From assembly GCA_011523425.1 (NCBI GenBank), contig WTGU01000032.1, positions 1 through 32,612 of the forward strand: a stretch of 32,612 bases of DNA, written 5' to 3'. Shown here piece after piece: positions 7,096 to 32,259 of the stretch. Each line of letters starts with the position of its first letter. Position 1 is the stretch's first letter. The stretch comes from Alphaproteobacteria bacterium (GTDB lineage Bacteria > Pseudomonadota > Alphaproteobacteria > UBA828). The translations under genes and the position numbers were made by a program. Under the pieces are notes generated by a model. The model saw only the letters and a list, made by a program, of their open reading frames with translations. It was not told the origin of the DNA and searched no databases.

Positions 7096-7503
<408 letters not shown>

Positions 7504-7572
7504 GCGCGCGAGCGCGCCGGCGCGGGCGTCGGGCGCCGCATGCGCAGACCGAGAGGCCGATGGAGCGGACAG

Positions 7573-8982
7573 ATGAGCGATAGCGACAGCGTCCTGGAGA
7601 TGATCGAGAAGAACGAGGTCCAGTTCGTGGACTTCCGGTTCACCGACCCTCGCGGCAAGTGGCAGCACATGACCCAGGCGGTGCGCACCGTCGACGAGGA
7701 GGTGCTCGACGACGGCATCATGTTCGACGGCTCCTCCATCGCCGGCTGGAAGGAGATCCACCAGTCCGACATGGTGCTCAAGCCGGACCCGGCGAGCGCG
7801 GTGATGGACCCGTTCTCGGCGCTGCCGCAGATGATCCTGACCTGCGACGTGATCGAGCCGTCGACCGGACAGGCCTATGACCGCTGCCCGCGCTGCGTGG
7901 CCAAGAAGGCGGAAATCTATCTCGCCTATTCCGGGCTGGGCGATACGGCCTTCTTCGGGCCGGAGGCGGAGTTCTTCGTCTTCGACGACGTGCGCTACAA
8001 GGTCTCGATGAACGAGACCTACTACATGCTCGACCAGGAGGAGGGGCCCTACAACACGGGCCGCGCCTACGAGGAGGGCAACGTCGGGCACCGCCCGCCG
8101 ACGAAGGGCGGCTACGTGCCGGTGCCGCCGATCGATTCGATGAACGACATGCGGGCCGAGATGGTCACCCACCTGGCGGGCATGGGCGTCAAGGTGGAGA
8201 AGCACCACCACGAGGTCGCGCCCAGCCAGAACGAGCTCGGGGTCGAGTTCGGCACTCTGCTCCAGGCCGCCGACCAGCTCCAGATCCAGAAGTACGTGGT
8301 GCATATGACCGCGCACAGCTACGGCAAGAGCGCGACCTACATGCCCAAGCCCGTCTTCGGCGACAACGGCTCCGGCATGCACGTGCACCAGTCGATCTGG
8401 AAGGACGGCAAGCCGCTGTTCGCGGGCGCGGGCTACGCCGACCTGTCGGACATGGCGCTCTACTATATCGGCGGGGTGATCCGCCACGCGCGGGCCATCA
8501 ACGCCTTCACCAACCCGACGACCAACAGCTACAAGCGGCTGGTGCCGGGCTACGAGGCGCCGGTGCTGCTGGCCTATTCGGCGCGCAACCGCTCCGCCTC
8601 GTGCCGCATTCCCTACGCGGCGAGCCCCAAGGGCAAGCGGGTCGAGGTGCGCTTCCCCGATCCCTCGGCCAACCCCTATCTCAGCTTCGCCGCCATGCTG
8701 ATGGCGGGGATCGACGGCATCGAGAACAAGATCCATCCGGGCGACGCGATGGACAAGAACCTCTACGACCTGCCGCCGGAGGAGCTGAAGGACGTGCCGA
8801 CCGTGTGCGGCAACCTGGGCCAGGCGCTGGACGCGCTCGACGCGGACCGCGACTTCCTGAAGAAGGGCGACGTCTTCACGGACGACCTGATCGACGGCTA
8901 TCTCGAGCTCAAGCGGGAGGAGCAGACGGCCTTCCTGATGTCCCCGCATCCCATCGAGTTCGAGATGTACTACTCCGTCTGA
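7573..8982 (+). CDS. glnA: Glutamine synthetase, type I (GSI-beta)
   Basis: This 469-residue enzyme is full length for dodecameric bacterial GSI. It makes glutamine from glutamate, ammonia and ATP. The beta-grasp signature FDGSSIAGW is near residue 55, metal and ATP residues lie in [16 protein letters not shown], and the substrate loop NRSASCRIP is present. The adenylylation tyrosine is Tyr398 in NLYDLPPEE (position 397 in mature numbering), so the enzyme should be controlled by GlnE adenylylation, in turn governed by the adjacent PII. GGAG lies eight bases before ATG 7573. An in-frame ATG 11 codons earlier would add a tail foreign to the family. Confidence 0.97.
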
Positions 8983-9002
8983 CCGGCCGGCGCGCGGGCC
9001 GG
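8983..9002 (+). terminator. GC-rich hairpin directly after glnA
   Basis: CCGGCC (8983-8988) and GGCCGG (8997-9002) can pair around an 8-base loop immediately after the glnA stop. No T-tract follows. It may attenuate transcription into the small genes downstream or simply protect the glnBA message. Confidence 0.35.
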
Positions 9003-9045
9003 CGGGCGCGGGCCATCCGCGCCTGCCGCCCGCGCCCCGCCGCCC

Positions 9046-9258
9046 GTGCCGGAGCGCTCGTCCGCCGTGCCGATCCAGATCGCCGTCGGCCTCGTATTCG
9101 GGGCGCTGCTGTTCTACCCCGCCTTGCGCATCTGCCGGCGTGCCGGGGTGCGCTGGCCGCTCGCGCTGGTGGTCTTCGTGCCCCTGATCGGGCCGCTCGT
9201 CCTGCTGGCGCTGCTCGCCTTCATGGTCTGGCCCAACGATCCCTACGGGAAGCGCTGA
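9046..9258 (+). CDS. Small two-helix membrane protein, unknown function
   Basis: This protein of up to 70 residues has two hydrophobic segments: about residues 8-27 (VPIQIAVGLVFGALLFYP) and 38-62 (WPLALVVFVPLIGPLVLLAL). They are separated by a short basic loop CRRAGVR, and the tail is WPNDPYGKR. It starts at GTG, either 9046 or the in-frame GTG at 9067. GGAG at 9051-9054 precedes the second, though at a long distance. The layout resembles the protein encoded four bases downstream, suggesting two related small inner-membrane proteins. It lies between glnA and argG. No function is known to me. Confidence 0.6.
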   Translation: MPERSSAVPIQIAVGLVFGALLFYPALRICRRAGVRWPLALVVFVPLIGPLVLLALLAFMVWPNDPYGKR

Positions 9259-9261
9259 GCC

Positions 9262-9628
9262 GTGATCGGCGTTCTGCAGTACCTCGCGGTCGTGGTCATC
9301 GCGATGTGGATGTTCTGGCGCATCTTCAACAAGGCCGGCCGCTCGCCCTGGTGGTCCCATCTCATGCTGATTCCCATCGTCGGCCTGTTCACGCCGATCC
9401 ATATCGGGATGGGCCTTCTGCTCGGCGTGCCGCTGGCGATGATCTGGGTCTTCGCCTTCTCGCCCTGGCCCTCGATCGACAATCCGCCCCCGGTCTCCGA
9501 CAGGCCGGGCTACGAGCCGCCCGCGCCGGAGCGCTTCAGGGGCCCGTTCAGATGGACCAGGCGGCCGGGCGCCCAGGGCGGCCGCAGGAGCCGAGGGGTC
9601 ACCCGCGTGCGGGAAAGGAGACGCGACG

Positions 9629-10911: not shown

Positions 10912-11535
10912 ATGAGCGGGGCCGACTGGCACATCAGGGGCGACTATTACGAGACCTGCAGCTGCGACTATCTCTGCCCCTGCATCTACACCAACATGAC
11001 CGCGATGCCGACCGATGGCGTCTGCAAGGTGGCGATCGTGCTGGACATCGCCGAGGGGCACTACGGCGACGTGCGCCTCGACGGTATCGCCTTCGTCACG
11101 GCGGCCATGGTGGCGGGGCCGATGGGCGACGGGAACTGGACCGTGGGGCTGATCATCGACGAGCGCGCGAGCGACGCGCAGGTGGATGCCATCGGCCGCA
11201 TCTGCTCCGGCGACGAGGGCGGCCCGATGGCGCTGATGGCGCCGCTGATCGGCACCTTCGCCGGGGTCGAGCGGGCGCCGATCGCGATCGAGCGGCGGGC
11301 CATGGGCTTCTCGATCACCGCCGGCGATCTGCTCAGCCACGGCGCAGAGGGCGTGCCCAGCCTGCCCGATCCGTCCGAGACCATCATGATCGACAACACC
11401 GGCCACCCCGCCAACAAGCGCCTGCATCTGGCGCGCGGGACCCACAGCCACCTCAACGCCTTCGGCATCGACTGGAATGATGCGGCGGGCGGTCACAACG
11501 GCCACTACGCCCCCTTCGACTGGCGCCCGAACTGA
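10912..11535 (+). CDS. DUF1326-family protein
   Basis: This 207-residue protein shows the DUF1326 pattern: a short N-terminal WHIRGDYYETCSCDYLCPC with Cys16, Cys18, Cys22 and Cys24, then alternating hydrophobic strands and IDNTGHPANKRLHLARGTHSHL near the end. The clustered cysteines suggest metal or redox binding, but no biochemical role is established. GGATGGAG stands just upstream of ATG 10912, which decides the start. There is no signal peptide or membrane segment, so it is probably cytoplasmic. It stands alone between the argG hairpin and the convergent ArsP-type permease. Confidence 0.85.
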   Translation: MSGADWHIRGDYYETCSCDYLCPCIYTNMTAMPTDGVCKVAIVLDIAEGHYGDVRLDGIAFVTAAMVAGPMGDGNWTVGLIIDERASDAQVDAIGRICSGDEGGPMALMAPLIGTFAGVERAPIAIERRAMGFSITAGDLLSHGAEGVPSLPDPSETIMIDNTGHPANKRLHLARGTHSHLNAFGIDWNDAAGGHNGHYAPFDWRPN

Positions 11536-11584
11536 TCGCGCGCCCGCAGGCGCGCTCCCCTCACACCATGGCCGGCCCACGGCT

Positions 11585-12565
11585 CTAGACGATCCAGGCG
11601 GCCACATAGCCGGCCGCGCAGGCGCCAACCATCGCGATTGCCACATAGAGCACGAAGACCCGGATGCGGACGATCGAGGCGACCGCCACCGCGACGTAGA
11701 GGCTCACCGCGGCGCCGGAGATCATCAGCGCAAGGGCGGCGCCGAAGCTCATCCCCTTCTCCATCAGCCCGCGCACCAGCGGCAGGGCCGCGTAGCCGTC
11801 CAGGTACATCGGCGCGCCGACGATCGCGGCCAGCGGAATGGAGGCGCCCGCGTCGTCGCTGAAGAGCGAGGCCACCCACGCGTCGGGTACGAAGCGTTGC
11901 AGGAACACCTCGAGGACGAGCGCCAGGACCAGCCAGCGCAGAACCAGCCGGACGCTGCCCCAGACCTCCGGCCAGAAGCGGGCACGCCGGACGTCGCAGC
12001 CGTACTGCTCCAGCAGGCCGGGGCGCATCAGGTGGTGAGCGGCGCCCCGATGGCCGGGCAGGGCCCAGGTGAGCGCGCCGGCGAACACGCCGATCCCGAA
12101 CGCGGCGACCGTCTTCGCGACGGCGAACGGGACCCCGATGATGCCGGCGGTGATGACCAGCATGCTTGGGTCGGTGATTGGAGACGCGACCCAGAACGCC
12201 ATGATGGGCGGGAGCGGCAGACCGCGGCGCAGGAGGGTCGCAATGAGGGGAAGCACGCCGAGACCGCAGACCGGGGTGACGGCCCCGACGAAGCTCGCGA
12301 TCACCACCGCGCGGGCCGGGCTGCCCGAGAGCCAGGCGAGCGCTCGGTCGGACCAGTTGCCGAGGGTCAGGGCACCGGCGAGAACGGCGGCGATCGCGAC
12401 CACCGGCAACAGCGCGAGCAGATCCCAGCCCAGCGCGATCAGCATCCCGGTATCGGCTTCGGGCAGCAGCGAGCCCACGACGAGCAGGGACGCAGTCACG
12501 AGCCACGTCAGCGCCTCCGCGCTCGGGCGCTGGAATCGAAACGGGCGGACCGCGGTGAGTTTCAT
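11585..12565 (-). CDS. UPF0718/ArsP-type permease, probable arsenical efflux
   Basis: This 326-residue polytopic membrane protein is built as two related halves, as in the UPF0718 (DUF318) family that includes the trivalent organoarsenical exporter ArsP. The first half has TPVCGLGVLPLIATLLRRGL followed by FWVASPITDPSMLVITAG. The second has IPLAAIVGAPMYLDGYAALP and EKGMSFGAALALMISG. Its ATG overlaps the stop of the ArsR-type gene (ATGA), which implies shared control by that sensor. The canonical cysteine in the first motif is kept as PVCG, but the usual second cysteine is leucine, so the substrate may differ from that of studied ArsP proteins. Family assignment is firm; arsenical export is inferred. 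Confidence 0.8.
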   Translation of the reverse strand: MKLTAVRPFRFQRPSAEALTWLVTASLLVVGSLLPEADTGMLIALGWDLLALLPVVAIAAVLAGALTLGNWSDRALAWLSGSPARAVVIASFVGAVTPVCGLGVLPLIATLLRRGLPLPPIMAFWVASPITDPSMLVITAGIIGVPFAVAKTVAAFGIGVFAGALTWALPGHRGAAHHLMRPGLLEQYGCDVRRARFWPEVWGSVRLVLRWLVLALVLEVFLQRFVPDAWVASLFSDDAGASIPLAAIVGAPMYLDGYAALPLVRGLMEKGMSFGAALALMISGAAVSLYVAVAVASIVRIRVFVLYVAIAMVGACAAGYVAAWIV

Positions 12566-12945
12566 GGCGTCGGGTCCTCGAGAGCCGCCCGCGCGGCACG
12601 GGCCCTGGACGACGGCCGGGCATCGGCGCAGCACTCCTCGAGCAGGAAGACCGCGAGGGCCTCGAGGCGCGGGTAGGCGGCGCGGCTGATCACGGTGCGG
12701 CCGCGCCGCTCCTGCTCGACCAGTCCGCCCGCGGTGAGGAACCCGAGGTGGTGGGCCAGGGTGGAGGCCGGCAACCCGGAGCGGTCCTTGATCTCGCCGA
12801 CCGAGAGCCCTTGGTCGCCGGCGCGCACGAGCAGGCGCAGCACCGTGAGCCTCGGTTCGGAGCCGCACGCGGCAAACGCCTGCGCTGCTTCTTCGAGTGC
12901 CGGGGCGGGCGCCGGGGGCGGCGCATGGCGGTGTTTGATATCCAT
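12562..12945 (-). CDS. ArsR/SmtB-family metalloid-responsive repressor
   Basis: This 127-residue winged-helix protein has the core EPRLTVLRLLVRAGDQGLSV at about residues 30-49, with recognition helix LPASTLAHHLGFLTAGGLV and wing QERRGRTVISR. A vicinal cysteine pair, Cys105-Cys106, ends the last helix (LLEECCADA), with Cys27 near the first. This resembles ArsR proteins that sense As(III) through C-terminal cysteines, as in Acidithiobacillus, rather than the classical ELCVCDL site, which is absent. The start at ATG 12945 is chosen because it adjoins a promoter and operator-like dyad and removes an upstream extension. It precedes and overlaps the permease gene it probably represses. Confidence 0.85.
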   Translation of the reverse strand: MDIKHRHAPPPAPAPALEEAAQAFAACGSEPRLTVLRLLVRAGDQGLSVGEIKDRSGLPASTLAHHLGFLTAGGLVEQERRGRTVISRAAYPRLEALAVFLLEECCADARPSSRARAARAALEDPTP

Positions 12946-12981: not shown

Positions 12982-13200
12982 CTGCCGGTGCACGGCGAAC
13001 CGTGTGCGCTCCGATTCACGCCGATGAGGAGCACATTGAATTTGGAGTCCTTCGGGTGGTCGTCGATCGAGCGCTCGACCCCTCTGCGCTGTCGCGCGCC
13101 TCCGTTGCGCGTGGGACCCGCTTTTGCGCTCGCGACCTTCGTGTGCCGCGCCCGCGACCTTGCAGGCACGACCGACTCAGGCGCGCGACTCTATCTTCCG

Positions 13201-13226
13201 CGCGCGGGACCTTTCAGGCCCGCGCG
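13201..13226. repeat. Intergenic hairpin
   Basis: CGCGCGGG (13201-13208) is the exact reverse complement of CCCGCGCG (13219-13226) across a 10-base loop ACCTTTCAGG. There is no T-tract. It lies in the gene-free interval and overlaps the second copy of the imperfect 18-base repeat. Confidence 0.4.
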
Positions 13227-13353
13227 ACCCCGGACCATGGTGCGGTGCACGGCGCGCGGCGCCTGCGCCAGACTCGCGCCATGCAGCGCGTGAGAGAACG
13301 GGGCGGGGCAGACGGGGCGACGGGGGAGCCGCCCGGCGCCATCTCGCGGTCGC

Positions 13354-13478
13354 GGGATTCATCCCGGATAACCCGCCCGGATATCCCGGCGGAATCCCAC
13401 CTTCTTCGGAAAATGTCCCGCGTCGAATCCCTTGCGATCCCGGCGAATCCCGGCAAAGGGGGGGCACTGCCGAATCCC
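13354..13478. repeat. Cluster of GAATCCC short repeats
   Basis: GAATCCC occurs at 13392-13398, 13425-13431, 13445-13451 and 13472-13478, with one inverted copy GGGATTC at 13354-13360. Related ATCCCGG words are scattered between them. The spacing (33, 20 and 27 bases) is irregular, so this is neither a CRISPR array nor a simple tandem repeat. It could be a decayed repeat family or a set of protein-binding sites. Confidence 0.5.
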
Positions 13479-13666
13479 ACTTTCGCGCCCCGCGTCCGGG
13501 TTCGCCGCGCGCACTCCGTCACCGCCGCCGTTCGACCCCCGCTGTGCCGCTTTGTGCCGGGTTGTCCCGGGACATCCCGCATAAAAAACGAGGGGGGTGT
13601 GCCACGTTGCGTCCCCGCTGCCCGGCCGCGCGGCGCGCCGGCCATGACCCTGGTGAGATGCGCGGG

Positions 13667-14167
13667 CTAGCGCTTCAGGCCGGCGAGGTCCCAGCCCACC
13701 TGGTTGTACATGTCCGGCGCGTTCCAGAGCCCGCGCAGGTACTTGATCCTGCCCTGCTCGACGAAGCAGATCTGGGAGAACTGGCAGTCGAAGCGGCGCC
13801 CGGTGCCGCGCAGGCCGAAATAGTCCTTGGTGATGGTGCCGCTCATCCAGCCCATGTCGCACACGACATCGCCCTGGACGCAGAACGCCTCGATGTAGAG
13901 CGAGAGGTCCGGCACCGCCTCCAGCCAGCCGCCGCCGAATTCGCGGATCGCGGCGTGGCCCACCGCCGGCGGCAGGGTGATGTCGTGATAGACCCCGTCG
14001 TCCGCCATGACGGCGACGACCTCGTCGATGTCCTGGCTCGACCAGCCCCGGCACTGGCGCCAGAGGAGCGCCAGATTGTCCCGCTCGGCCTCGCTCAGGT
14101 CGCCAAAACTCTCGATCGGCTCGTCCAGCAGGTTTCGGTCGCTCATCAACCAGTCGCGCGTGTCCAT
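13667..14167 (-). CDS. SnoaL-like (NTF2-fold) protein
   Basis: This 166-residue protein fits the SnoaL/NTF2-like fold. It has an N-terminal helix (WRQCRGWSSQDIDEVVAVMA), then DDGVYHDITLPPAVGHAAIREF and a curved sheet ending in KYLRGLWNAPDMYNQVG. Members are small cytoplasmic proteins that act as isomerases, hydrolases or ligand-binding modules on small hydrophobic molecules. The substrate cannot be guessed here. GGGAG stands about eight bases before ATG 14167. A second ATG seven codons in is possible but has no better ribosome site. It is a single gene flanked by the gene-free interval and a divergent outer-membrane protein gene. Confidence 0.8.
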   Translation of the reverse strand: MDTRDWLMSDRNLLDEPIESFGDLSEAERDNLALLWRQCRGWSSQDIDEVVAVMADDGVYHDITLPPAVGHAAIREFGGGWLEAVPDLSLYIEAFCVQGDVVCDMGWMSGTITKDYFGLRGTGRRFDCQFSQICFVEQGRIKYLRGLWNAPDMYNQVGWDLAGLKR

Positions 14168-14328
14168 GCGTCACTCCCTTATCCGCCCCGCCGTGCGGCC
14201 CGCCGGCCGGAGCGCGCCTCACTAGACACGATATTCCGGGTCCCTGCACGGCGAATCGCCGCATTGTACCGGGGGGTTGTCCGAAATAGGCTTGAGGCTG
14301 TGGTGCAGCGCCACAGGGAGGACGTCAC

Positions 14329-15207
14329 ATGATTACAATGAGAACCCGTGTGCTCCGACTATGCGCGGCCGCCGCGCTCGCCGGTGCGGCCTTCGGCGGC
14401 GTGCCGGCGGCGCAGGCGGAGGACGGCAACTGGTACATCGGGGCCACCATGCCCCTCATGTTCATCGACGATTCAAAGGCGATCTCCGAGGGGAGCTTCA
14501 CGCTGCCCGATCCAAGAACCGGGCAACCGGCGACGACCGACTATCGCGCGCAGGTCGAGACCTCGCACGATACGGGCTTCAAGCTGGGCGGCATGCTCGG
14601 CTACGAGTTCGGCGACGGCCTGCGCGTGGAGGGCGAGCTCTTCTTCGCCAGGGCCGACGTCAGCACGCTGACTCACAGCAGCATCACGGTGCCCGCGCTC
14701 TCCCTCACCCTCCAGGACGAGGTCGCCATTCCCGTGACCGGCTCGGGCGAGCAGCTCGGCGCCATGGTGAACGTCTGGTACGACATCGAGACCGACGACG
14801 CCTGGACCCCCTTCATCGGCGGCGGGCTGGGCTTGATCCGGATCGACCAGAGCGACCTGAAGTACGACACCGGCGCGGTGGCCGGAGCGGTGGCGACGCA
14901 CCTGAAGCTGCTCGGGGCCCAGCAGGCGGCCCTGGCGATGGGCCTGCCGCCGCCACAAGAGGTGGACCCGGTCCAGCTTCCGCCGGGGCTCGTGCCGTCG
15001 ATCTCCTCGGCCGACACGGCGCTCGCCTGGCAGATCGGCATGGGCGTCGGCTATGCGCTGTCGGAGACCGCGACGCTCCAGTTCGGCTACCGCCTGCAGG
15101 CGCTCAATGGCCTGAACTTCAGGGGCAGCAACGCCATGGCGTCGGTGAACGCCGAGACCGACCTGCGGATCCACTTCCTCGAGATCGGCATCCGCCAGCG
15201 CTTCTGA
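14329..15207 (+). CDS. Outer-membrane beta-barrel protein
   Basis: This 292-residue protein has a Sec signal peptide: basic start MRTRVLRL, hydrophobic core, then cleavage probably after AQA at residues 28-30. The mature chain begins EDGNWYIGATMPLMFIDD, has alternating strand patterns with glycine and aromatic residues (LGGMLGYEFGDGLRVEGELFF, WTPFIGGGLGLIRIDQ), and ends in phenylalanine (LEIGIRQRF), the signature of outer-membrane barrels. It resembles opacity/OmpW-like 8-stranded porins. A loop at about residues 185-225 is proline-rich. GGGAGG lies a few bases before ATG 14329. Its role (adhesion, small-molecule permeability) is unknown. Confidence 0.8.
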   Translation: MITMRTRVLRLCAAAALAGAAFGGVPAAQAEDGNWYIGATMPLMFIDDSKAISEGSFTLPDPRTGQPATTDYRAQVETSHDTGFKLGGMLGYEFGDGLRVEGELFFARADVSTLTHSSITVPALSLTLQDEVAIPVTGSGEQLGAMVNVWYDIETDDAWTPFIGGGLGLIRIDQSDLKYDTGAVAGAVATHLKLLGAQQAALAMGLPPPQEVDPVQLPPGLVPSISSADTALAWQIGMGVGYALSETATLQFGYRLQALNGLNFRGSNAMASVNAETDLRIHFLEIGIRQRF

Positions 15208-17034: not shown

Positions 17035-18378
17035 ATGCGTGTCAACCGGCGTACCATCCTCAAGGGCGCTCTCGCGGGGACGGCCGGCATCGCCGCCACG
17101 TTCCCCCACATCTACGTCAAGGACTTCGGCCAGGCCTGGGGCGCGAAGCCCTGGATCTACAACGACGAGCCGATCAAGGTCGGCATGCTGTGGTCGCAGA
17201 CCGGCAACCTCTCGGTCGTCGAGAACGATTCCACCCAGGTCTCGCTCTACGCGGTCGACGAGATCAACGCGGCGGGCGGCATCGCCGGCAAGATGGTCGA
17301 GCCGGTGGTGGTCGACGCCAAGTCCGACATCAAGGTCTACTCGGAGAAGATCACGCAGCTCATTCTCCGCGACCGCGTGGTCTCGGTGCACGGCAGCTAC
17401 ACCTCGGCGAGCCGGCGTGCGGTCATGCCGATCGTGATGAAGTGGGACCACCTCTACTACTACCCGACCTGCTACGAGGGCCGGGAGTGCATGCAGAACA
17501 TCATCAACACCGGGCCGCTGGCCAACCAGCATTCCTTCGACCTGGTGCCGTTCATGGTGCAGAATTTCGGCCCCAAGACCTACCTGGTCGGCTCCAACTA
17601 CATCTGGCCGAAAGAGTCCAACAAGAACGTCAAGGTCTGGCTGGAGCGGGCCGGCGGCGAGGTGCTGGGCGAGGACTACATCCCCCTCGGCGGTTCCGAG
17701 TTCGCGCCGGTCTTCAACAAGATCCGCCAGCAGCAGCCGGACTGGATCATGTCGACCGTGGTTGGCGATTCCGACATCGCCCTGCACCGGCAGTTCCTGC
17801 AGGAAGGCTTCAAGTCCGACAAGACGCCGATCGCATCGCTTACCACCGGTGAGATCGAGACCCGCGCCATGGGCAACGAGGCCGGCGCCGGTCACTTCCT
17901 GTCCGCGCCCTACTTCCAGACGCTGCAGAACCCGACCAACGAGAAGTTCGTTGAGGGCTATCTCTCGAGCCAGTATGGCGGCGGCGGCGTCACCCACTAC
18001 AACATGGAAGAGACCTACCTCGGCATCTACGTGTGGAAGAAGGGTGTCGAGCGCGCTCTCGAGGAGACCGGCGGCGACTGGGAAGCCATCACGCCGCGCA
18101 TGATCCGCGACGTCAGCGGCAACTGGCGCGACCAGGGCCCGGTGGGGCTCACCGACGAGGAGAGCCCGGAGGGCAAGGTCTGGATCGATCCGGACAACTT
18201 CAACATCTGGCTCAAGCCCAAGATCGGCCAGTGCGGTGCGGACGGGCAGTTCACCATCGTGCGCCAGGCCGACGACCACGTCGGGCCAGATCCCTTCGCG
18301 ATCTATCCCGAGCGCGGCGTCTGCAAGGCCGACGGGCTGCACCGGCCCGACGGCTCGATCCAGAAGGACGTTCTGTAA
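17035..18378 (+). CDS. Substrate-binding protein, UrtA/FmdD-like (urea or short-chain amide)
   Basis: This 447-residue periplasmic binding protein starts with a twin-arginine leader (Arg5-Arg6 in NRRTILKGALAG). The mature part has IKVGMLWSQTGNLSVVE, VDEINAAGGIAGK, then YYYPTCYEGRECMQN and LVGSNYIWPKESNKN, the pattern of UrtA, AmiC and FmdD binding proteins for urea and short amides. It is longer at the C-terminus than typical LivJ proteins, as in UrtA. GGAGGT lies seven bases before ATG 17035. It is first in a ten-gene operon, followed by a stable hairpin and then permeases. A formamide or N-alkyl amide ligand is suggested by the downstream dimethylformamidase-like genes; this is inference. 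Confidence 0.9.
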   Translation: MRVNRRTILKGALAGTAGIAATFPHIYVKDFGQAWGAKPWIYNDEPIKVGMLWSQTGNLSVVENDSTQVSLYAVDEINAAGGIAGKMVEPVVVDAKSDIKVYSEKITQLILRDRVVSVHGSYTSASRRAVMPIVMKWDHLYYYPTCYEGRECMQNIINTGPLANQHSFDLVPFMVQNFGPKTYLVGSNYIWPKESNKNVKVWLERAGGEVLGEDYIPLGGSEFAPVFNKIRQQQPDWIMSTVVGDSDIALHRQFLQEGFKSDKTPIASLTTGEIETRAMGNEAGAGHFLSAPYFQTLQNPTNEKFVEGYLSSQYGGGGVTHYNMEETYLGIYVWKKGVERALEETGGDWEAITPRMIRDVSGNWRDQGPVGLTDEESPEGKVWIDPDNFNIWLKPKIGQCGADGQFTIVRQADDHVGPDPFAIYPERGVCKADGLHRPDGSIQKDVL

Positions 18379-18530: not shown

Positions 18531-19433
18531 ATGAGCGTCCACGATTTCTGGACACCCTTCGCCGCTGAACCGTTCATTAATGCGCTGATCATCGGCCTCA
18601 GCCTGGCCAGCATCTGGCTGGTCGCGGCGCTGGGGCTCACCATCATCTACGGCACCATGGGCGTCATCAACATGGCCCATGGCGAGTTCATCATGCTGGG
18701 CGCCTACTTCACGTGGATCCTGCAGTATTTCGGCGGGTTCCCCTGGCTGCTCTGCCTGCCCATCTCCTTCATTGTCGTCGGCTTCATCGGCTGGCTGGTC
18801 GAACGCGGGCTCATACGACATTTGTACGACCGACCATTGGACACGCTCCTCGCGACATGGGGCGTCTCCTTGGTCTTCATCCAGAGCATCCGGCTGATCT
18901 TCGGCGGCGAGCCGCAATACGTCGAGGTGCCCGACTGGCTGACCAGCGTGATGACGATCGACTTCGTCCACGTGCCGTGGCTGAGGATCTTCATCTTCTT
19001 CGCGGCGCTGGCGCTGGTGGCCATGACCTGGGCGATCCTGTTCAAGACCAATATCGGCATCCAGGTTCGCGCGGTGATGCAGAACCCGCAGATGGCGGCG
19101 TCCTTCGGCATCAATTCGAGCCGGGTCTACGGCCTCACCTTCGCCTACGGGGCGGGCCTCGCGGGCATCTCCGGCTCCATGTTCGCGGGCCTCAAGACGA
19201 TCTTCCCGGACATGGGGCTCGGCTACGTGGTCGAGGCCTTCCTCGTGGTGGTGACGGGCGGCGGCGAGCTCTTCGGCAGCCTGGCGACCGCCGGCATCAT
19301 GGGCGAGATGTTCTCGATCTTCTCCTACTTCACCAACGACACGTTCGCCCGCTTCGTGCTGTTCATCCTGATCGTGATCTTCCTCAGGTTCCGGCCGCAG
19401 GGCATCTTCGCGCCCAGCATGGCGCGGCGCTAG
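18531..19433 (+). CDS. ABC transporter permease, UrtB/LivH type
   Basis: This 300-residue polytopic protein has LivH/UrtB hallmarks: TIIYGTMGVINMAHGEFIML near residue 40, LATWGVSLVFIQSIR near residue 107, and RAVMQNPQMAASFGI, the ATPase-docking loop. It ends LRFRPQGIFAPSMARR. With the next gene it forms the channel for the substrate delivered by the binding protein upstream. The ribosome site is weak (purine-rich GGGAGAGAGG too far from the ATG at 18531), which would keep its level below that of the binding protein. The next gene starts 16 bases after its stop. Confidence 0.92.
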   Translation: MSVHDFWTPFAAEPFINALIIGLSLASIWLVAALGLTIIYGTMGVINMAHGEFIMLGAYFTWILQYFGGFPWLLCLPISFIVVGFIGWLVERGLIRHLYDRPLDTLLATWGVSLVFIQSIRLIFGGEPQYVEVPDWLTSVMTIDFVHVPWLRIFIFFAALALVAMTWAILFKTNIGIQVRAVMQNPQMAASFGINSSRVYGLTFAYGAGLAGISGSMFAGLKTIFPDMGLGYVVEAFLVVVTGGGELFGSLATAGIMGEMFSIFSYFTNDTFARFVLFILIVIFLRFRPQGIFAPSMARR

Positions 19434-19449
19434 GAGCGGGGCGCACGTC

Positions 19450-20592
19450 ATGCTGTTGGAACGGTTGAGGCTGGAGCCGACGGCGCAGCGGCAGAACCTC
19501 TACCACGACAAGCGCGCACAGTGGGCGATGTACGTCGTCGCCTTCGGCGCGCTCGCCACCATCCCGCTGTTCATGGGCGACGACCCCTTCGCCCTCAACC
19601 AGTTCGCGCGCTACGGCGTCTTCGGCATGCTGGCGCTCTCGGTCAGCCTGGTGTGGGGCTTCGGCGGCATCCTCAGCCTCGGCCAGGGGATCGCATTCGG
19701 CATGGCGGCCTACGGCATGGGCGCCACCATGCAGATGCAGTACCAGGATCCGGAATACGACCCGATCCCGAGCTTCATGCTGACCAACGAGCTCGAGAAG
19801 CTGCCGACGGTCTGGGAGCCGTTCTGGCATACCGAGGTCGGGCTGATCCTGGCGCTCGGAATCCCGACGCTCTTCTTCGTCATCTTCGGCATCCTGATGT
19901 TCCAGGCGCGGCTCGCCGGCGCGTTCGTCGCCATCATGACGCTCGCCATGCTCGGCGCCTGGTACAACATGGCCTACGACATGCAGCCGTTTACGGCGGG
20001 CTTCAACGGCATCTCGCCGCCCAACTCGTTCCAGGCGTTCGGCGTCGACGTCGACCCCTACAGCAGCATGATCTACTGGGTGGCGCTCGGCGTGCTCGCC
20101 GCACTCACCCTCGGAACCAAGGCGCTGCTCGCCAGCAAGTTCGGCACCATCATCCAGGCGATACGGGACGACCCCGAACGAGCGCGCTTCCTCGGCTACA
20201 ACGTCGCCTTCTACCAGGTGACGGTGTTCACGATCTCCGGCCTGATCGCGGCGATCGCGGGCATCGTCTGGGTGATGATCGTCCAGTACGTCTCGCCGAC
20301 GTCGCTGGAGATCTTCTTCAGCATCACCATGGTGATCTGGGCCGCCGTCGGCGGCAGGCTATCGCTCTTCGGCGCGATCTTCGGCGCCATCTTCATCAAC
20401 ACGATCCAGAGCTACGTGGGCGACGAGTTCCAGGCCGCCTGGTTCGTGATCCTCGGCACGATCTTCATCGTCGTCGTGCGATTCCTGCCGAAGGGGATCG
20501 CCGGCCTGTTCGAGATGATCGTCGGCCTCGTCCCCTATCGCGGCCGCGCGCCGGTCCAGCCGTCGCTCGGCCCGCGGCGGGCGTCGGACTAG
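19450..20592 (+). CDS. ABC transporter permease, UrtC/LivM type
   Basis: This 380-residue protein is the second permease. Besides the LivM core (WGFGGILSLGQGIAFGMAAY near residue 75, IRDDPERARFLGYN near residue 238), it carries a long hydrophilic insertion at about residues 95-130 (QMQYQDPEYDPIP to TVWEPFWHTEVG). This insertion is characteristic of UrtC-type urea/amide permeases and absent from amino-acid LivM. That distinguishes this cassette from the shorter permease at 127-1182. The next gene begins within about 12 bases of its stop, and an AGGAGG ribosome site overlaps the TAG. Confidence 0.92.
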   Translation: MLLERLRLEPTAQRQNLYHDKRAQWAMYVVAFGALATIPLFMGDDPFALNQFARYGVFGMLALSVSLVWGFGGILSLGQGIAFGMAAYGMGATMQMQYQDPEYDPIPSFMLTNELEKLPTVWEPFWHTEVGLILALGIPTLFFVIFGILMFQARLAGAFVAIMTLAMLGAWYNMAYDMQPFTAGFNGISPPNSFQAFGVDVDPYSSMIYWVALGVLAALTLGTKALLASKFGTIIQAIRDDPERARFLGYNVAFYQVTVFTISGLIAAIAGIVWVMIVQYVSPTSLEIFFSITMVIWAAVGGRLSLFGAIFGAIFINTIQSYVGDEFQAAWFVILGTIFIVVVRFLPKGIAGLFEMIVGLVPYRGRAPVQPSLGPRRASD

Positions 20593-20604
20593 GAGGGCGT
20601 GGAG

Positions 20605-21360
20605 GTGGCTGCCATCCTGGAGGTCACGGACCTGACCAAGGCCTATGACGAGTACAAGGTCGTCGACGGCTTCAGCTTCCAGGTCGAGGAGGGCGAGCTG
20701 CGCTGCCTGCTCGGGCCCAACGGTGCCGGAAAGACCACGACGATGGACCTGATCACCGGTCGCCAGAAGGTGACGGGTGGCAAGATCATGTTCCAGGGCC
20801 GCGACATCACGGGCCTGACGGAGCACCGGATCGTCAAGCACGGGATCGGCCGCAAGTTCCAGGTGCCGGCGGTGTTCAGGGACCTCACCGTGCGCGAGAA
20901 CCTGCAGGTCGCCAACACGCAAAACACCAACCCCTTCATCAACATGATCACCTACCGCCAGCGGGCGGGGCGCGAGAGGCTCGGCGAGATCGCCGAGCTG
21001 GTCGGGCTGGAGGAGCGGCTGGACGAGCTCGGCGGCAACCTGAGCCACGGCGAGACCCAGTGGCTCGAGATCGGCATGGTGCTTACCCAGGATCCGCGGC
21101 TCCTGCTCATGGACGAGCCCACCGCCGGCATGACCGAGCAGGAGACCCACCGCACCTCCGAGATCTTCAACCGCCTCAAGGGAACGCACACGCTGGTGGT
21201 GGTCGAGCACGACATGGCCTTCGTGCGCGAGATCGCCGACATCATCACGCTCATGCACCTGGGCAAGACCCTGGCGGAGGGCCCCATGCACGAGGTGGAA
21301 AACGATCCGAAGGTGCGCGAGGTCTATCTCGGCGCCGAGGGCATCAGCGATGCTGCTTGA
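20605..21360 (+). CDS. ABC transporter ATP-binding protein, UrtD/LivG type
   Basis: This 251-residue ATPase has Walker A GPNGAGKTT near residue 40, signature LSHGETQWLEIGM (the LSHG variant typical of UrtD rather than LSGG), Walker B LLLMDEPTAGM and the switch histidine in VVEHDM. FQVPAVFRDLTVRENL follows the Q-loop. Two in-frame GTG codons are possible. GTG 20605 is preferred because AGGAGG ends eight bases before it, whereas GTG 20599 is only two bases from that site. It powers import together with the next ATPase, whose start lies 11 bases inside this gene. Confidence 0.92.
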   Translation: MAAILEVTDLTKAYDEYKVVDGFSFQVEEGELRCLLGPNGAGKTTTMDLITGRQKVTGGKIMFQGRDITGLTEHRIVKHGIGRKFQVPAVFRDLTVRENLQVANTQNTNPFINMITYRQRAGRERLGEIAELVGLEERLDELGGNLSHGETQWLEIGMVLTQDPRLLLMDEPTAGMTEQETHRTSEIFNRLKGTHTLVVVEHDMAFVREIADIITLMHLGKTLAEGPMHEVENDPKVREVYLGAEGISDAA

Positions 21361-22048
21361 GCTCGAAGGCGTCACTTCCTACTACGGGAAGACGCCGATC
21401 CTGCAGAACGTGAGCCTGGGCGTGCAGCACGGCCACTGCATGGCGGTGCTCGGGCGGAACGGAGTCGGCAAGACGACGCTGGTGCGCACCATCATGGGGC
21501 TGACCACGCGCATGACCGGCACGCTCAGGATCGCCGGCGAGGACGCGAGCAACATGCCCACGCATCAGCGCTCCGAGATCGGCATGGGATACATCCCGCA
21601 GGGGCGCGGCATCCTGCCCAAGTTCTCGGTGCGCGAGAACATCCTGCTCGGGACCTTCGCCCGCAACGACAAGCGCCGCAAGATCCCCGACATGTGCCTC
21701 GACCTCTTTCCCTATCTCGCCGAGAACCTGGACAAGCGGGCGGGGCAGCTCTCGGGCGGTCAGCAGCAGCAGCTCGCGATCTCGCGGGCGCTCGCGACCG
21801 ACCCGAAGATCCTGCTGCTGGACGAGCCGACGGAGGGCATCCAGCCCAACATCGTGCAGGAGCTCGAGGCCACGATCATGCGGCTCAACACCGAGGTCGG
21901 GCTCACGCTCGTGCTCACCGAGCAGCACATCAAGGTCGCGCGCGAGCTCTCGCACGAGTTCGTCATCATGGACAACGGTCTGGTCGTGGAGGGTGGCCCC
22001 ATCGACCAGTTGACCGACGAGGTCGTCGACAAGTACCTGACGATCTAG
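21350..22048 (+). CDS. ABC transporter ATP-binding protein, UrtE/LivF type
   Basis: This 232-residue ATPase is the normal LivF/UrtE length. It has Walker A GRNGVGKTTL near residue 37, GYIPQGRGILPKFSVRENIL, signature LSGGQQQQLAISRALA, Walker B ILLLDEPTEGIQPNI and switch TEQHIK. PTEGIQPNIVQE is typical of UrtE. It overlaps the UrtD-like gene by 11 bases and completes the five-component importer. The amidase-subunit gene starts 43 bases after its stop with its own strong ribosome site, so transport and hydrolysis genes are in one operon. Confidence 0.92.
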   Translation: MLLELEGVTSYYGKTPILQNVSLGVQHGHCMAVLGRNGVGKTTLVRTIMGLTTRMTGTLRIAGEDASNMPTHQRSEIGMGYIPQGRGILPKFSVRENILLGTFARNDKRRKIPDMCLDLFPYLAENLDKRAGQLSGGQQQQLAISRALATDPKILLLDEPTEGIQPNIVQELEATIMRLNTEVGLTLVLTEQHIKVARELSHEFVIMDNGLVVEGGPIDQLTDEVVDKYLTI

Positions 22049-22091: not shown

Positions 22092-22532
22092 ATGATCCGC
22101 ATCCCGCCGAAAGGTAGTCCCGAACGGGACCGTCTCATCGAAGAGCACCAGGCATGTATCGAGTCCATGAAGGGCGTCGCCGGATGCTCGATCCTGCGTT
22201 GCGCGACGCAGGGCGACACCACCGAGATCAGCGGCGGCATCCACGAGGACTTCCAGCTCAACCGCGTGCTGCTGCGGATGCGGGCACAGCCGGCGAAGGG
22301 CAAGCTCGTGGTGGTCTGCACCAAGATCGAGAAGGAATGGCGCATCGCCCGCTGTTCCGGCATCCGCGGCGTGCCGCCGGAGTTCGTCTCCGACAAGGTG
22401 TACGACAACGAGCAGGATCCGCAGCACGACATCTTCCTGATGCGGCTGGACGAGTTCCCGGAGACCGACGGTTTCCCCGAGCACTTCCACCAGGGCTGGA
22501 AGCGTCGCGACGACAACTGGGCCGCATCCTAG
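22092..22532 (+). CDS. Probable small subunit of an N,N-dimethylformamidase-like enzyme
   Basis: This 146-residue cytoplasmic protein lies directly before the large-subunit gene. From memory of the DMFase small subunit (about 132 residues), the same spaced pattern is visible here: LNRVLLRMRAQP, then G and a hydrophobic strand, EWRIARCSGIRGVPPEF, and FLMRLDEF. The order small then large subunit matches dmfA1-dmfA2. GGGGGAG lies seven bases before ATG 22092. The N-terminal 50 residues, including CIESMKGVAGCSILRCATQG with four cysteines, look unlike the characterised subunit. Similarity is partial and recalled rather than computed, so confidence is moderate. Its role would be to support the iron-containing large subunit. 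Confidence 0.6.
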   Translation: MIRIPPKGSPERDRLIEEHQACIESMKGVAGCSILRCATQGDTTEISGGIHEDFQLNRVLLRMRAQPAKGKLVVVCTKIEKEWRIARCSGIRGVPPEFVSDKVYDNEQDPQHDIFLMRLDEFPETDGFPEHFHQGWKRRDDNWAAS

Positions 22533-25098: not shown

Positions 25099-26220
25099 AT
25101 GACGATGCGGCCCGATCTCGACTACATGGACGAGGGCGTCGATCTCCAGGATCCTGCCCTCTACAAGCCGTCGCGCGGGCCCTTCGGCAGGGCCCGCATC
25201 CTCACGCCCATCGCCTATCGCTCCAAGGTCTTCGCCGACCTTGAGGACGAGAAGATCTGGACGCGGAGCTGGATCTGCATCGGCTCCCATCGCGACATTC
25301 CGAACGTCGGCGACCTCCTGCCCTACACCGTCGGCAATCACGGCGTTCATGTGCAGCGCGGCAGCGACGGGCTGATCGGGCGCTACAATCTCGCCCAGCA
25401 CGGCGGCTGCCGCTTCGTGCCGGCCCAGTGCCAGACCGGCTCCAAGACGAAGTGCTCGTTCACCTCGTGCGGCTACAGCCGCGATCGCGGGGTGATCGCC
25501 GCCGACGAGCTCGGCGACGACACGCCGACCATGCGCCAGTATCTCGGCTTTCGGCCCGAGCGCCTGCTGCCGGTCACGGTGGAAAGCGAGGGGCCGCTCC
25601 TCTTCGTCAATCTCGACCCGGAGGCCGCCCCGCTCGCCGACCGGCTGGGCGACGTGGCCGATACTCTCGCCCTCGAGGACGCAGAGGCCGGGGACGACGC
25701 CGAGAGCTTCCGGGTGGAGTACGACGCCAACTGGAAGCTCCTCGGCCGCGCGCTGCTGCGCTCCCTCGCGCCCGAGGCCAGGCCTGCGAAGAAGGGAAAT
25801 GCCGACGCGATTGTTCTCGACACGGCCTCCGATTTTTCCGGCGCGCCCGCGACCGTCCACTGGCTCCTGCCTAACCTGATCCTGCTGCGGGGCGAGGGCC
25901 ATCTGTTGAGCATCGTGCTGCAGCCCACCGCGCTCGAGGAGACGCTGGCCCGGGTCAGGCTCGCCGCCGCAGGGCCCGTCGATTCCGGCACGCTCGCGGC
26001 CTTGCGCGCCGCCCTCGACGAGGCCGGCGCCACGGCGGCGGCGCTGCAGGAGGAGCTGGGGCGCTTCGGCACGCCGTCGCGGCCCCGCACCAGCCTGAAG
26101 AAGCTCCCCCTCGAGCGGGACCGCGCCGCCCTTCTGCTGCAGGCCTACGTGATCGGGCGCGTGCTGAAGCGTCACGAGCTCCACTGGTCGGCCCCGCTCT
26201 ACGCGGCCGCCGCGCGCTGA
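25099..26220 (+). CDS. Degenerate Rieske-type ring-hydroxylating oxygenase homologue, probably not an oxygenase
   Basis: This 373-residue protein has the fold markers of Rieske oxygenase alpha subunits: EKIWTRSWICIGSHRDIPNV, GDLLPYTVGNHGVHVQRG, LLFVNLDPEAAPLADRLGD and DANWKLLGRALL. The cluster motif C-x-H-x17-C-x2-H is broken: Ala99 replaces the first cysteine and Thr122 the last histidine, while His101 and Cys119 remain at the right spacing. Extra cysteines (Cys104, Cys111, Cys124) crowd the site. The catalytic His-His-Asp triad normally after NWK is also missing. It may bind another metal or serve as a scaffold. GAGGGT lies eight bases before ATG 25099. Its stop overlaps the next ATG by one base (TGATG), so it is coupled within the amidase operon. 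Confidence 0.8.
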   Translation: MTMRPDLDYMDEGVDLQDPALYKPSRGPFGRARILTPIAYRSKVFADLEDEKIWTRSWICIGSHRDIPNVGDLLPYTVGNHGVHVQRGSDGLIGRYNLAQHGGCRFVPAQCQTGSKTKCSFTSCGYSRDRGVIAADELGDDTPTMRQYLGFRPERLLPVTVESEGPLLFVNLDPEAAPLADRLGDVADTLALEDAEAGDDAESFRVEYDANWKLLGRALLRSLAPEARPAKKGNADAIVLDTASDFSGAPATVHWLLPNLILLRGEGHLLSIVLQPTALEETLARVRLAAAGPVDSGTLAALRAALDEAGATAAALQEELGRFGTPSRPRTSLKKLPLERDRAALLLQAYVIGRVLKRHELHWSAPLYAAAAR

Positions 26221-26525
26221 TGGTCTACAGCGTTCAGCAGATCAAGTACGAGATCCTCGCCTACATCAGGGAGTTCGGCGGGGACTTCGGCGACTACTAC
26301 GTGGGAATAGCGGCCGACCCGAAGAAGACCCTGCGCGACGTCCACAAGGTGGACGAGGCCGCCGATCCCTGGCTCTACAAGCAGGCGCTCACCTTCTACG
26401 CCGCGCAGACGGTCCAGGACTACTTCCTGCGCCGGCTCAAGGCCGACGGCGAGCCGGTGCGCGACGGCGACGAGGACATGGACTGCGTCTATGTCTACAA
26501 GAAGAGCGAGCGGACCGTCCCGTAG
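26220..26525 (+). CDS. Small conserved protein, unknown function
   Basis: This 101-residue protein has an N-terminal helix (YSVQQIKYEILAYIREFGGD), then DYYVGIAADPKKTLRDVHKV, and ends MDCVYVYKKSERTVP. The YVGIAxDP stretch recalls short bacterial proteins with a GIY-YIG-like start, but the nuclease residues cannot be recognised, so no activity is claimed. The ATG uses the last base of the preceding stop codon (TGATG), which ties its translation to the degenerate oxygenase. It is not the DMFase small subunit: it lacks that pattern, which is found at 22092-22532 instead. Confidence 0.75.
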   Translation: MVYSVQQIKYEILAYIREFGGDFGDYYVGIAADPKKTLRDVHKVDEAADPWLYKQALTFYAAQTVQDYFLRRLKADGEPVRDGDEDMDCVYVYKKSERTVP

Positions 26526-27252
26526 CGGGCGGCGCCGGGCGAAGGCCGGCGAGGCCGGCGCGAGGGCTGCGCGCGCGGAGCGCGAGGCCGAAGCGATCGA
26601 GGAGGGGCGCCGCGCCTACATGGCCCGCGACTTCGAGCGGGCGCGGGCTCTCTGGCTGCCGCTCGCCGAGGCGGGCAACGCCGAGGCCCAGGCCTGGGTC
26701 GGCTCGCTCCATGCCAACGGGGACGGCGTCGAGGCCGACGCGGCGGCGGCCTTCGCTTGGTATCTCAAGTCGGCCGAGGGCCGGAACGTGCTGGCCCAGA
26801 GCAACGTCGGCGCGATGTACGCCATGGGCAGCGGCGTCGCCCAGGACATGGCGGAGGCGGTACGCTGGCTGCGGCGCGCGGCCCGCGGCGGCGACGCCAA
26901 CGCCCGCTTCAACCTCGGCGTGCTCTACGGCCAGGGCAACGGCGTGCCCCGGAACAACGCCCGCGCCGCCGAGTGGTACCGCAAGGCGGCGGAAACGGGG
27001 CACTACCAGTCCCAGGCCCGTCTCGGCCACATGTACCTGGCAGGCGAGGGCGTGAAGAGGGACCGCGTGCAGGCCTTCCTGTGGCTCTCGCTCGCCGCCC
27101 GGCACGGCATCGGCAGCGCGCTCACCGCCCTCGAAGCGGTGGTCAAGGAGATGTCATCGGACGAGAAGGCCGCGGGCATGCGCCTCGTCGCCCAGTGGCG
27201 CGGCAGGGCGGACAGCGAGGCCGACGTGCTCATCGATCCAGTGCCCGTCTGA
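26491..27252 (+). CDS. Sel1-repeat protein
   Basis: This 253-residue protein has four Sel1-like repeats of 36 residues starting at about residues 66, 102, 138 and 174 (for example LGVLYGQGNGVPRNNARAAE and LGHMYLAGEGVKRDRVQAF). The preceding EGRRAYMARDFERARALWLP is a TPR/Sel1-type capping helix pair, which argues against a start at ATG 26620 inside it. The ATG at 26491 overlaps the previous gene by 35 bases. The first 30 residues are basic, without a signal peptide, so it is probably cytoplasmic, unlike many Sel1 proteins. Sel1 repeats mediate protein-protein contacts. It may be the last gene of the operon or a read-through neighbour. Confidence 0.82.
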   Translation: MSTRRASGPSRSGRRRAKAGEAGARAARAEREAEAIEEGRRAYMARDFERARALWLPLAEAGNAEAQAWVGSLHANGDGVEADAAAAFAWYLKSAEGRNVLAQSNVGAMYAMGSGVAQDMAEAVRWLRRAARGGDANARFNLGVLYGQGNGVPRNNARAAEWYRKAAETGHYQSQARLGHMYLAGEGVKRDRVQAFLWLSLAARHGIGSALTALEAVVKEMSSDEKAAGMRLVAQWRGRADSEADVLIDPVPV

Positions 27253-30761: not shown

Positions 30762-32189
30762 CTAGATCGCGGGCCGCCTGCCCTGCCAGGGCTGCGTCGC
30801 GCCCTCGAAGGCGGCGGCGGCGCGGAACACGGCGTGATCGTCGTAGGGCCGGCCCACAATCTGCATGCCGGTGGGCACGCCATAGGAGGAGAAGCCGGTC
30901 GGCACGCTCATCGCCGGACACTGGCTCATCAGGTTGAAGGGGTTGGTGCAGACCCAGCCGACATAGGCCGGCAGGCGGACGCCGTTGATCTCGAAATCGG
31001 GGTCCGCGTCGTCATGGTCGGCCTTGACCGCTGGCACCGCGAGGGTCGGGCAGATCAGGATGTCGTAGGACTTGAGGATCGGCTGCAGCTGCTGCCACAT
31101 CCAGCCGCGGAACACCTGGCACTGGTAGAGGCGCGCGGCGCTGTGGCCCAGCCCGCTCTCGAGCAGCCTGACGACGAACGGGTCCATCTCGTAGCGCCAG
31201 CGGGGCAGCAGATGGCCGGCGATCCCGGCGAAGAGGCCCTCCCACCAGGTCATCCAGCAATCGAGGACACCGAAGTTCCAGCCGATGTCGACCTCCTCCA
31301 CGGTGCACCCGAGCGAGCGCAGCGTCTCGGCCGCGCGCCGCGTGTTCGCCTGCACCTCCGGGTCGATCTGCAGGTAGCCGAGGTCCATGGAGAAGGCGAC
31401 CTTCCAGCCGCGGATGTCGTCGTAGGTGGTCGGCAGCCGCACCTTGTTGGGGAGGCTACTGAGATCGTCCGGATGCGGCCCCGACATGACGTTCTGCATG
31501 AGCGCGGCGTCGGCGACGCTGCGGACCATGGGGCCGTAGTGCAGGATCGTCTCCAGCGGATGGTCCCGGTCGAGCGGATTGCGGCCGAAGGGGGGCTTGT
31601 AGCCGAAGAGACCGCAGGCGGACGAGGGGATGCGGATCGAGCCGCCGCCGTCGGTGCCGTCGGCGAGCGTGGTCATGCCGCCGGCGACCGCCGCGCCCGC
31701 GCCGCCCGATGAGCCGCCCGAGGTGTACTCCAGGTTCCACGGATTGGGCGTGATCCCCCAGAGCGGGCTGTGGGTGGCGCCGGAATAGGCGAACTCCGGC
31801 GACGTCGTGCGCATGTGCATGATGGCGCCGGCGCGCAGCAGCCGGTCCACCGTCGCAGCGGTGTAGTCGGGGCGGAAGTCCTCGAAGATCTTCGAGCCGA
31901 AGGTGGTGATCTCGCCCTTGACCGGGTGGAAGTCCTTGATCGCCACCGGCACGCCCTCGAGCGCGCGCAGCCGGCCGTCGGTCTTTCCGTACTTGGCCTC
32001 GGCCTTCTTCGCCTGCTCGCGCGCCCGGTCGAAGAAGTCGTAGGTGATGGCGTTGACCTTGGGATTGATCGCCTGCGCGCGCGCGATCTGCGCGTCCAGC
32101 AGCTCCACCGGCGATAGCGTGCGCGCCTTGAAGCGTGCTAGCGCCTCGCTCGCCGTCAGGTAGCAAAGCTCGAGATCGGCCGATGCCAT
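30762..32189 (-). CDS. Amidase signature family hydrolase
   Basis: This 475-residue amidase-signature enzyme carries the Ser-cisSer-Lys triad: Lys85 in GVPVAIKDFHP, Ser160 in TSGGSSGGAGAAVAGG and nucleophile Ser184 in GTDGGGSIRIPSS. The 24-residue spacing between the serines equals that of fatty-acid amide hydrolase. It hydrolyses a C-N bond in an amide, but the substrate is open; GatA is less likely since no gatB or gatC lies nearby. GGGGAG precedes ATG 32189 by seven bases, favouring it over an upstream codon. It is co-directional with a GST and follows an oxidoreductase gene by about 70 bases, suggesting a small catabolic operon. Confidence 0.92.
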   Translation of the reverse strand: MASADLELCYLTASEALARFKARTLSPVELLDAQIARAQAINPKVNAITYDFFDRAREQAKKAEAKYGKTDGRLRALEGVPVAIKDFHPVKGEITTFGSKIFEDFRPDYTAATVDRLLRAGAIMHMRTTSPEFAYSGATHSPLWGITPNPWNLEYTSGGSSGGAGAAVAGGMTTLADGTDGGGSIRIPSSACGLFGYKPPFGRNPLDRDHPLETILHYGPMVRSVADAALMQNVMSGPHPDDLSSLPNKVRLPTTYDDIRGWKVAFSMDLGYLQIDPEVQANTRRAAETLRSLGCTVEEVDIGWNFGVLDCWMTWWEGLFAGIAGHLLPRWRYEMDPFVVRLLESGLGHSAARLYQCQVFRGWMWQQLQPILKSYDILICPTLAVPAVKADHDDADPDFEINGVRLPAYVGWVCTNPFNLMSQCPAMSVPTGFSSYGVPTGMQIVGRPYDDHAVFRAAAAFEGATQPWQGRRPAI

Positions 32190-32259
32190 GATGTGTCTCC
32201 CCTTGGGCTCCCTTGGCCTTCCCATGAACGTCCCGTCGAATCGCTGCGCCCGTCAGGCG

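Follow-up and report, generated by a model that had tools for sequence, protein, structure and literature searches.

Annotation of Rieske oxygenases routinely goes by overall similarity, and the protein considered here is a relative of theirs encoded beside an amidase of the dimethylformamidase (DMFase) type. The canonical DMFase, that of Paracoccus, consists of alpha and beta subunits and binds Fe(III) in a Tyr-Tyr-Glu site, its small subunit shapes the substrate entrance, and the recombinant enzyme from E. coli has kinetics similar to those of the native one, the large subunit alone being inactive (PMC7686228). In Paracoccus aminophilus pAMI2 is required for growth on DMF, and a dmfA1-dmfA2 pair on pAMI5 (34% and 40% identity) is not linked to DMF use (PMC4543880). 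A search of open-licence papers for Rieske pseudoenzymes, and for dimethylformamidase together with Rieske, found no account of the protein described below.

The window, meaning the whole stretch of DNA analysed, has 32,612 nucleotides and is from an Alphaproteobacteria bacterium (UBA828; GCA_011523425.1, contig WTGU01000032.1, positions 1 to 32,612, forward strand). An operon on its plus strand encodes a UrtA-like substrate-binding protein (Peripla_BP_5, 17035-18378, under the UrtA cut-off), permeases and ATPases of the UrtB, UrtC, UrtD and UrtE types (18531-22048, each over its NCBIfam equivalog cut-off), a DmfA1-like small subunit of 146 aa (22092-22532), a DmfA2-like large subunit of 801 aa (PF20254, 22621-25026), the 373-aa protein of rewired Rieske-oxygenase fold, with neither Rieske cluster motif nor mononuclear iron triad, that is the main subject here (25099-26220; hereafter the Rieske-fold protein), a 101-aa cassette-specific protein (26220-26525) whose ATG overlaps the preceding stop (TGATG), and a Sel1-repeat protein of 253 aa (26491-27252). 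None of the annotated genes of the operon was found to encode a ferredoxin or reductase, though many Rieske oxygenases use distant partners. Elsewhere in the window a minus-strand ORF pair (127-2048) groups with the permease genes of the operon, a protein of the amidase signature family (PF01425, E 2e-91) is encoded close to the operon on the minus strand (30762-32225), and three long ORFs, some of which may not be genes, are without a Pfam match at 1e-5 (7105-9402, minus; 11477-12676 and 13124-14332, plus).

That the Rieske-fold protein descends from Rieske oxygenases had been claimed in a sequence-only reading of this DNA, which was also exact about the intact frame and about Ala99, His101, Cys104, Cys111, Cys119, Thr122 and Cys124. 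The ancestry is upheld by sequence matches and by the predicted fold. NCBIfam GbcA matches with E 1.8e-13, phthalate dioxygenase 9jp5 with E 1e-11 and the PDB profile 1uli with E 6e-15, the Cys-His box 'nqcrHRG' of the last aligning to 'nkAqHGG'; the Pfam Rieske model leaves the protein undetected and, in a scan of its own genome, scores 19 other places. An AlphaFold2 model built with 18 homologues (mean pLDDT 74.8, pTM 0.82) resembles CntA and other Rieske oxygenases in both domains (Foldseek E 1e-12 for CntA; against CntA 6zgp, VIA gives Z 24.4 and rmsd 3.6 over 292 aligned residues). The monomer prediction, proposed earlier as a check, recovers the two-domain fold of Rieske oxygenases; pLDDT is below 50 across most of residues 100-127, the rewired loops, where the cysteine geometry is not confidently predicted. 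In prediction, then, the whole Rieske plus START-like catalytic domain fold is retained with metal-site loops of low confidence, and the protein is a genuine but diverged Rieske-oxygenase homologue.

How widely are its peculiarities shared? Homologues come from six of the eight genomes of the genus, the window's included (the other five are 78-83% identical), from the GTDB genome set (17 loci), from 16 of the 21 genomes of the same family, from another genome of the same class (L095) and from P. aminophilus, where the gene is on the plasmid/chromid pAMI5. The alignment has 28 homologues (20 after 80% identity filtering), with a lowest pairwise identity of 29%. The C-x-H-x15-22-C-x2-H [2Fe-2S] motif of Rieske oxygenase alpha subunits is missing in all 28. 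The old ligands are uniformly lost, since position 99 is Ala (Val once) and position 122 is Thr (Leu once) throughout. As a control, every canonical Rieske locus retrieved from the window's genome has an intact C-x-H...C-x2-H. An intact motif in homologues of the same context would have made the window's copy a simple mutant, and none of them has one.

The second metal site has fared no better. The iron triad said to be absent after NWK is indeed so: [DE]-x2-H-x3-5-H occurs in none of 10 homologues and in 11 of 11 canonical oxygenases, the E/D-x2-H-x4-H motif is missing from the window's own protein, and the C-terminal domain has no invariant His in the 28-sequence alignment, which leaves a 2-His-1-carboxylate site wanting. 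In a tree with canonical oxygenases the rewired proteins form one clade (support 0.94). Loss of the Rieske sites is no single-genome oddity, as the whole subfamily has it, and judged by motif the Rieske-fold protein is not an oxygenase, both metal sites being gone in every homologue.

What has been gained is as conserved as what has been lost. Cys104, Cys111, Cys119 and Cys124, whose conservation the sequence-only reading had made a test, are invariant in all 28 homologues, as are His101, His81 and His84; there is no other invariant Cys or His. The first five of these residues named lie in a block at residues 99-130 (25393-25488, plus strand), AQHGGCRxxPxQCQTGxKTxCSFTSCGYSRDR, ahead of which His81-Gly-x-His84 (25339-25350, plus strand) provides, in the alignment, two extra histidines that are as invariant as the cysteines and were absent from the earlier reading. 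Of 40 invariant positions in total, 17 fall among the 32 of the block and 23 among the 341 elsewhere (Fisher p 2e-10). In comparison with five congeners, dN/dS is lowest across residues 40-130, at about 0.05-0.15, against some 0.28-0.45 in the C-terminal part and some 0.22-0.33 over the gene as a whole. Purifying selection acts on the gene, with the tightest constraint in the rewired Rieske domain, so the earlier impression of a gene maintained rather than decaying was right.

The amidase next door retains what its iron would need. Aligned to 6lvb, Tyr406, Tyr446, His526 and Glu528 of the large subunit correspond to DMFase Tyr399, Tyr440, His519 and Glu521, so that the 2-Tyr-1-Glu iron ligands and the catalytic His are present, and both Tyr are found in 22 of 22 members of the cassette clade described below. 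Beside the Glu ligand these cassette amidases have His529, against Tyr in all 30 other DmfA2 examined, and they have Asp554 where DMFase has Asn547, Asn being the residue in most of the 30; the two changes suggest a substrate other than DMF. The 22092-22532 product is probably the amidase's true small subunit: no Pfam or NCBIfam model matched it and its best match, to 6lvb_B, is weak, and a search with its profile picks up the small subunits at syntenic positions in Aminobacter (4e-9) and Halalkalicoccus (3e-9). In eight sequences of this small subunit Cys22, Cys37 and Cys76, with His19, His51 and His112, are invariant.

The 101-aa product of 26220-26525 had itself been a candidate for the small subunit, dropped once the DmfA1-like ORF was found upstream of the large subunit; it is a separate family, seen solely in genomes with the cassette, one copy in each. 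No Pfam or NCBIfam model matched it, and comparisons of its AlphaFold model, with a pLDDT of 94.5, gave nothing convincing by way of a similar fold (E 0.28 at best in Foldseek, Z 3.3 at best in VIA). The family has an invariant S-x-QQIK-x-E motif, and may bear some resemblance to GIY-YIG-like small proteins.

Every motif-bearing homologue whose neighbourhood was read lies in a single type of cassette, in the order DmfA1-like small subunit, DmfA2-like iron amidase, Rieske-fold protein and 101-aa protein, usually with a Sel1-repeat protein and a urea-type ABC transporter. The first four genes are present at all 16 loci compared in detail, the Sel1 gene at 15, and transporter genes are near most. 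The hosts are Alphaproteobacteria, including Hyphomicrobium, Methyloligella and Paracoccus, and also a Burkholderiales MAG in which the 101-aa gene is displaced. In the window's family the 16 genomes (of 21) with a Rieske-fold protein each have it directly beside one DmfA2 copy, and no Rieske-fold or 101-aa neighbour was found within the flanks examined at 30 other DmfA2 loci. With one to nine DmfA2_C matches in each genome, iron-amidase-like genes are markedly expanded in this family. Cassette amidases are monophyletic (22 of 22 tips, support 0.91) against the 30 other DmfA2, DMFase and N-acetyl-(R)-beta-phenylalanine acylase. Synteny, co-occurrence and this monophyly give strong support to the suspected link between the Rieske-fold protein and the iron amidase, and in the genomes searched the association is exclusive to one amidase clade.

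In a plasmid search with the large subunit pAMI5 alone reaches 71% identity, the next being at 42%, and the two plasmid-borne relatives inspected (Aminobacter and Halalkalicoccus) have a small subunit and no Rieske-fold gene. On plasmid pcAMD1 of the metformin-degrading Aminobacter niigataensis MD1 the operon runs LuxR regulator, small subunit, DmfA2-like subunit and a 130-aa ORF; the paper on this strain mentions neither dimethylformamide nor dimethylformamidase. The thought that the cassette might stand in for a missing urease was dropped, as a urease-alpha match above the cut-off is present in each of the 21 family genomes, and is strong in all except one that is 62% complete.

What might a dismantled oxygenase do for an amidase? 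Probably it serves the amidase as a dedicated helper or subunit and is neither an oxygenase nor a broken gene, and a Rieske non-heme iron oxygenase may have been recruited just once as the accessory of one DmfA1/DmfA2-type amidase clade. Since His101 and Cys119 are kept at old ligand positions, one in each loop, with Cys104 and Cys124 beside them and Cys111 between, a new two-loop metal site (Fe-S or Zn) could have been built from the first four, perhaps with Cys111. We put at about even the chances that the protein is a former oxygenase turned amidase-specific accessory with a rebuilt putative metal site of this kind, although the invariant cysteines could instead serve in a disulfide or in catalysis. 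Because the accessory genes are fixed to one amidase, maturation or a larger complex is suggested: with less confidence, the Rieske-fold, 101-aa and Sel1-repeat proteins might mature or load the buried 2-Tyr-1-Glu iron site, or else the Rieske-fold protein might sit in the amidase holoenzyme as an extra subunit. Given the Urt-type transporter and, in Paracoccus, an AmiS/UreI channel as neighbours of the amidase, the operon would serve to take up and hydrolyse a small amide or a compound like urea, probably not DMF.

In a more ambitious version, the former Rieske loops would carry a new Cys/His-ligated iron or Fe-S site that can be handed on, and the protein, together with the 101-aa and Sel1-repeat ones, would build the iron centre of a specialized amidase for a urea-like substrate, as a metallochaperone or cofactor-assembly factor. 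This is rather unlikely, and we are similarly reserved about amidase iron loading by the Rieske-fold protein as such. As the canonical two-subunit DMFase made in E. coli is functional (PMC7686228), a loading factor is not generally required for DMFase chemistry. The suggestion that metal delivery or a scaffold was what the amidase needed is weakened as a general need of this class.

An extra structural subunit, its cysteines holding structural zinc or simply its loops, that tunes substrate access or oligomerization and delivers no metal, is a possibility we would entertain tentatively. There is precedent in the entrance-shaping small subunit of canonical DMFase (PMC7686228), the start-stop overlap with the 101-aa gene is in keeping with it, and so are two substitutions specific to the cassette, close to the active site of the amidase, His529 in place of Tyr and Asp554 against DMFase Asn547. 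However, the catalytic-like domain has changed much more rapidly than the one with the Cys/His set, which makes a large conserved interface in the former unlikely.

It is improbable that the cysteines form disulfides as a redox or thiol switch sensing oxidants for the amidase. Their invariance in 28 homologues would suit a switch, and Cys104 is at the position of a disulfide cysteine of the bc1-type Rieske protein, A-x-H-x2-C matching C-T-H-L-G-C of high-potential Rieske proteins, a likeness of value as a lead only. Yet the second disulfide cysteine is away from the bc1 position, three invariant histidines are left unexplained, and the protein has no obvious signal peptide, the cytoplasm being reducing. 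Less probable still is a separate new enzyme that uses a thiolate-ligated metal on the product or substrate of the amidase. The invariant block rich in Cys, His and Arg and the amide-type operon are what one might expect of it, and C-S-F-T-S-C is, we presume, like the nitrile hydratase claw C-S-L-C-S-C with its middle Cys changed to Thr, but the likeness is six residues long, the middle Cys is missing in all homologues, and occurrence solely beside the amidase better fits an accessory. An ordinary decaying or mutated Rieske oxygenase, for which the loss of both metal sites would speak, is refuted by the invariance of the new motif, by the low dN/dS, and by the intact frames and conserved operon found in every homologue, and has next to no probability left.

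If the Cys/His site binds metal, the amidase accessory favoured here would be a clear case of a fold from which two metal sites have been dismantled and in which another has been installed for a partner role. In any event the function of an uncharacterized clade of iron amidases becomes testable through its Rieske-fold gene.

With Rieske non-heme iron oxygenases (CntA carnitine monooxygenase, GbcA, stachydrine demethylase and the biphenyl dioxygenase alpha subunit) the Rieske-fold protein has in common a two-domain fold, N-terminal sequence and the residual features NWK, His101 and Cys119. Unlike them it has no C-x-H/C-x2-H and no His-His-carboxylate site, it has a new invariant Cys4His3 set, and no electron-transfer genes were found in its operon. 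Its P. aminophilus homologue, annotated as 'biphenyl 2,3-dioxygenase', belongs to a conserved subfamily that by its motifs cannot be an oxygenase. This homologue comes directly after the pAMI5 dmfA1-dmfA2 pair, the part of the locus that PMC4543880 covers, its account not extending to the rest of the cassette. The locus (JCM7686_pAMI5p063-064) is a true cassette of small subunit, large subunit, Rieske-fold protein and a 108-aa protein, after which comes an AmiS/UreI channel gene; the stretch read contains neither a Sel1 gene nor a Urt operon. With the DMFase DmfA1/DmfA2 of Paracoccus (6lvb, PMC7686228) the cassette amidase shares the Tyr, Tyr and Glu iron ligands and the essential His; where that enzyme makes do with alpha and beta subunits, the cassette clade has three further proteins, Rieske-fold, 101-aa and Sel1, as well as altered residues around the iron site.
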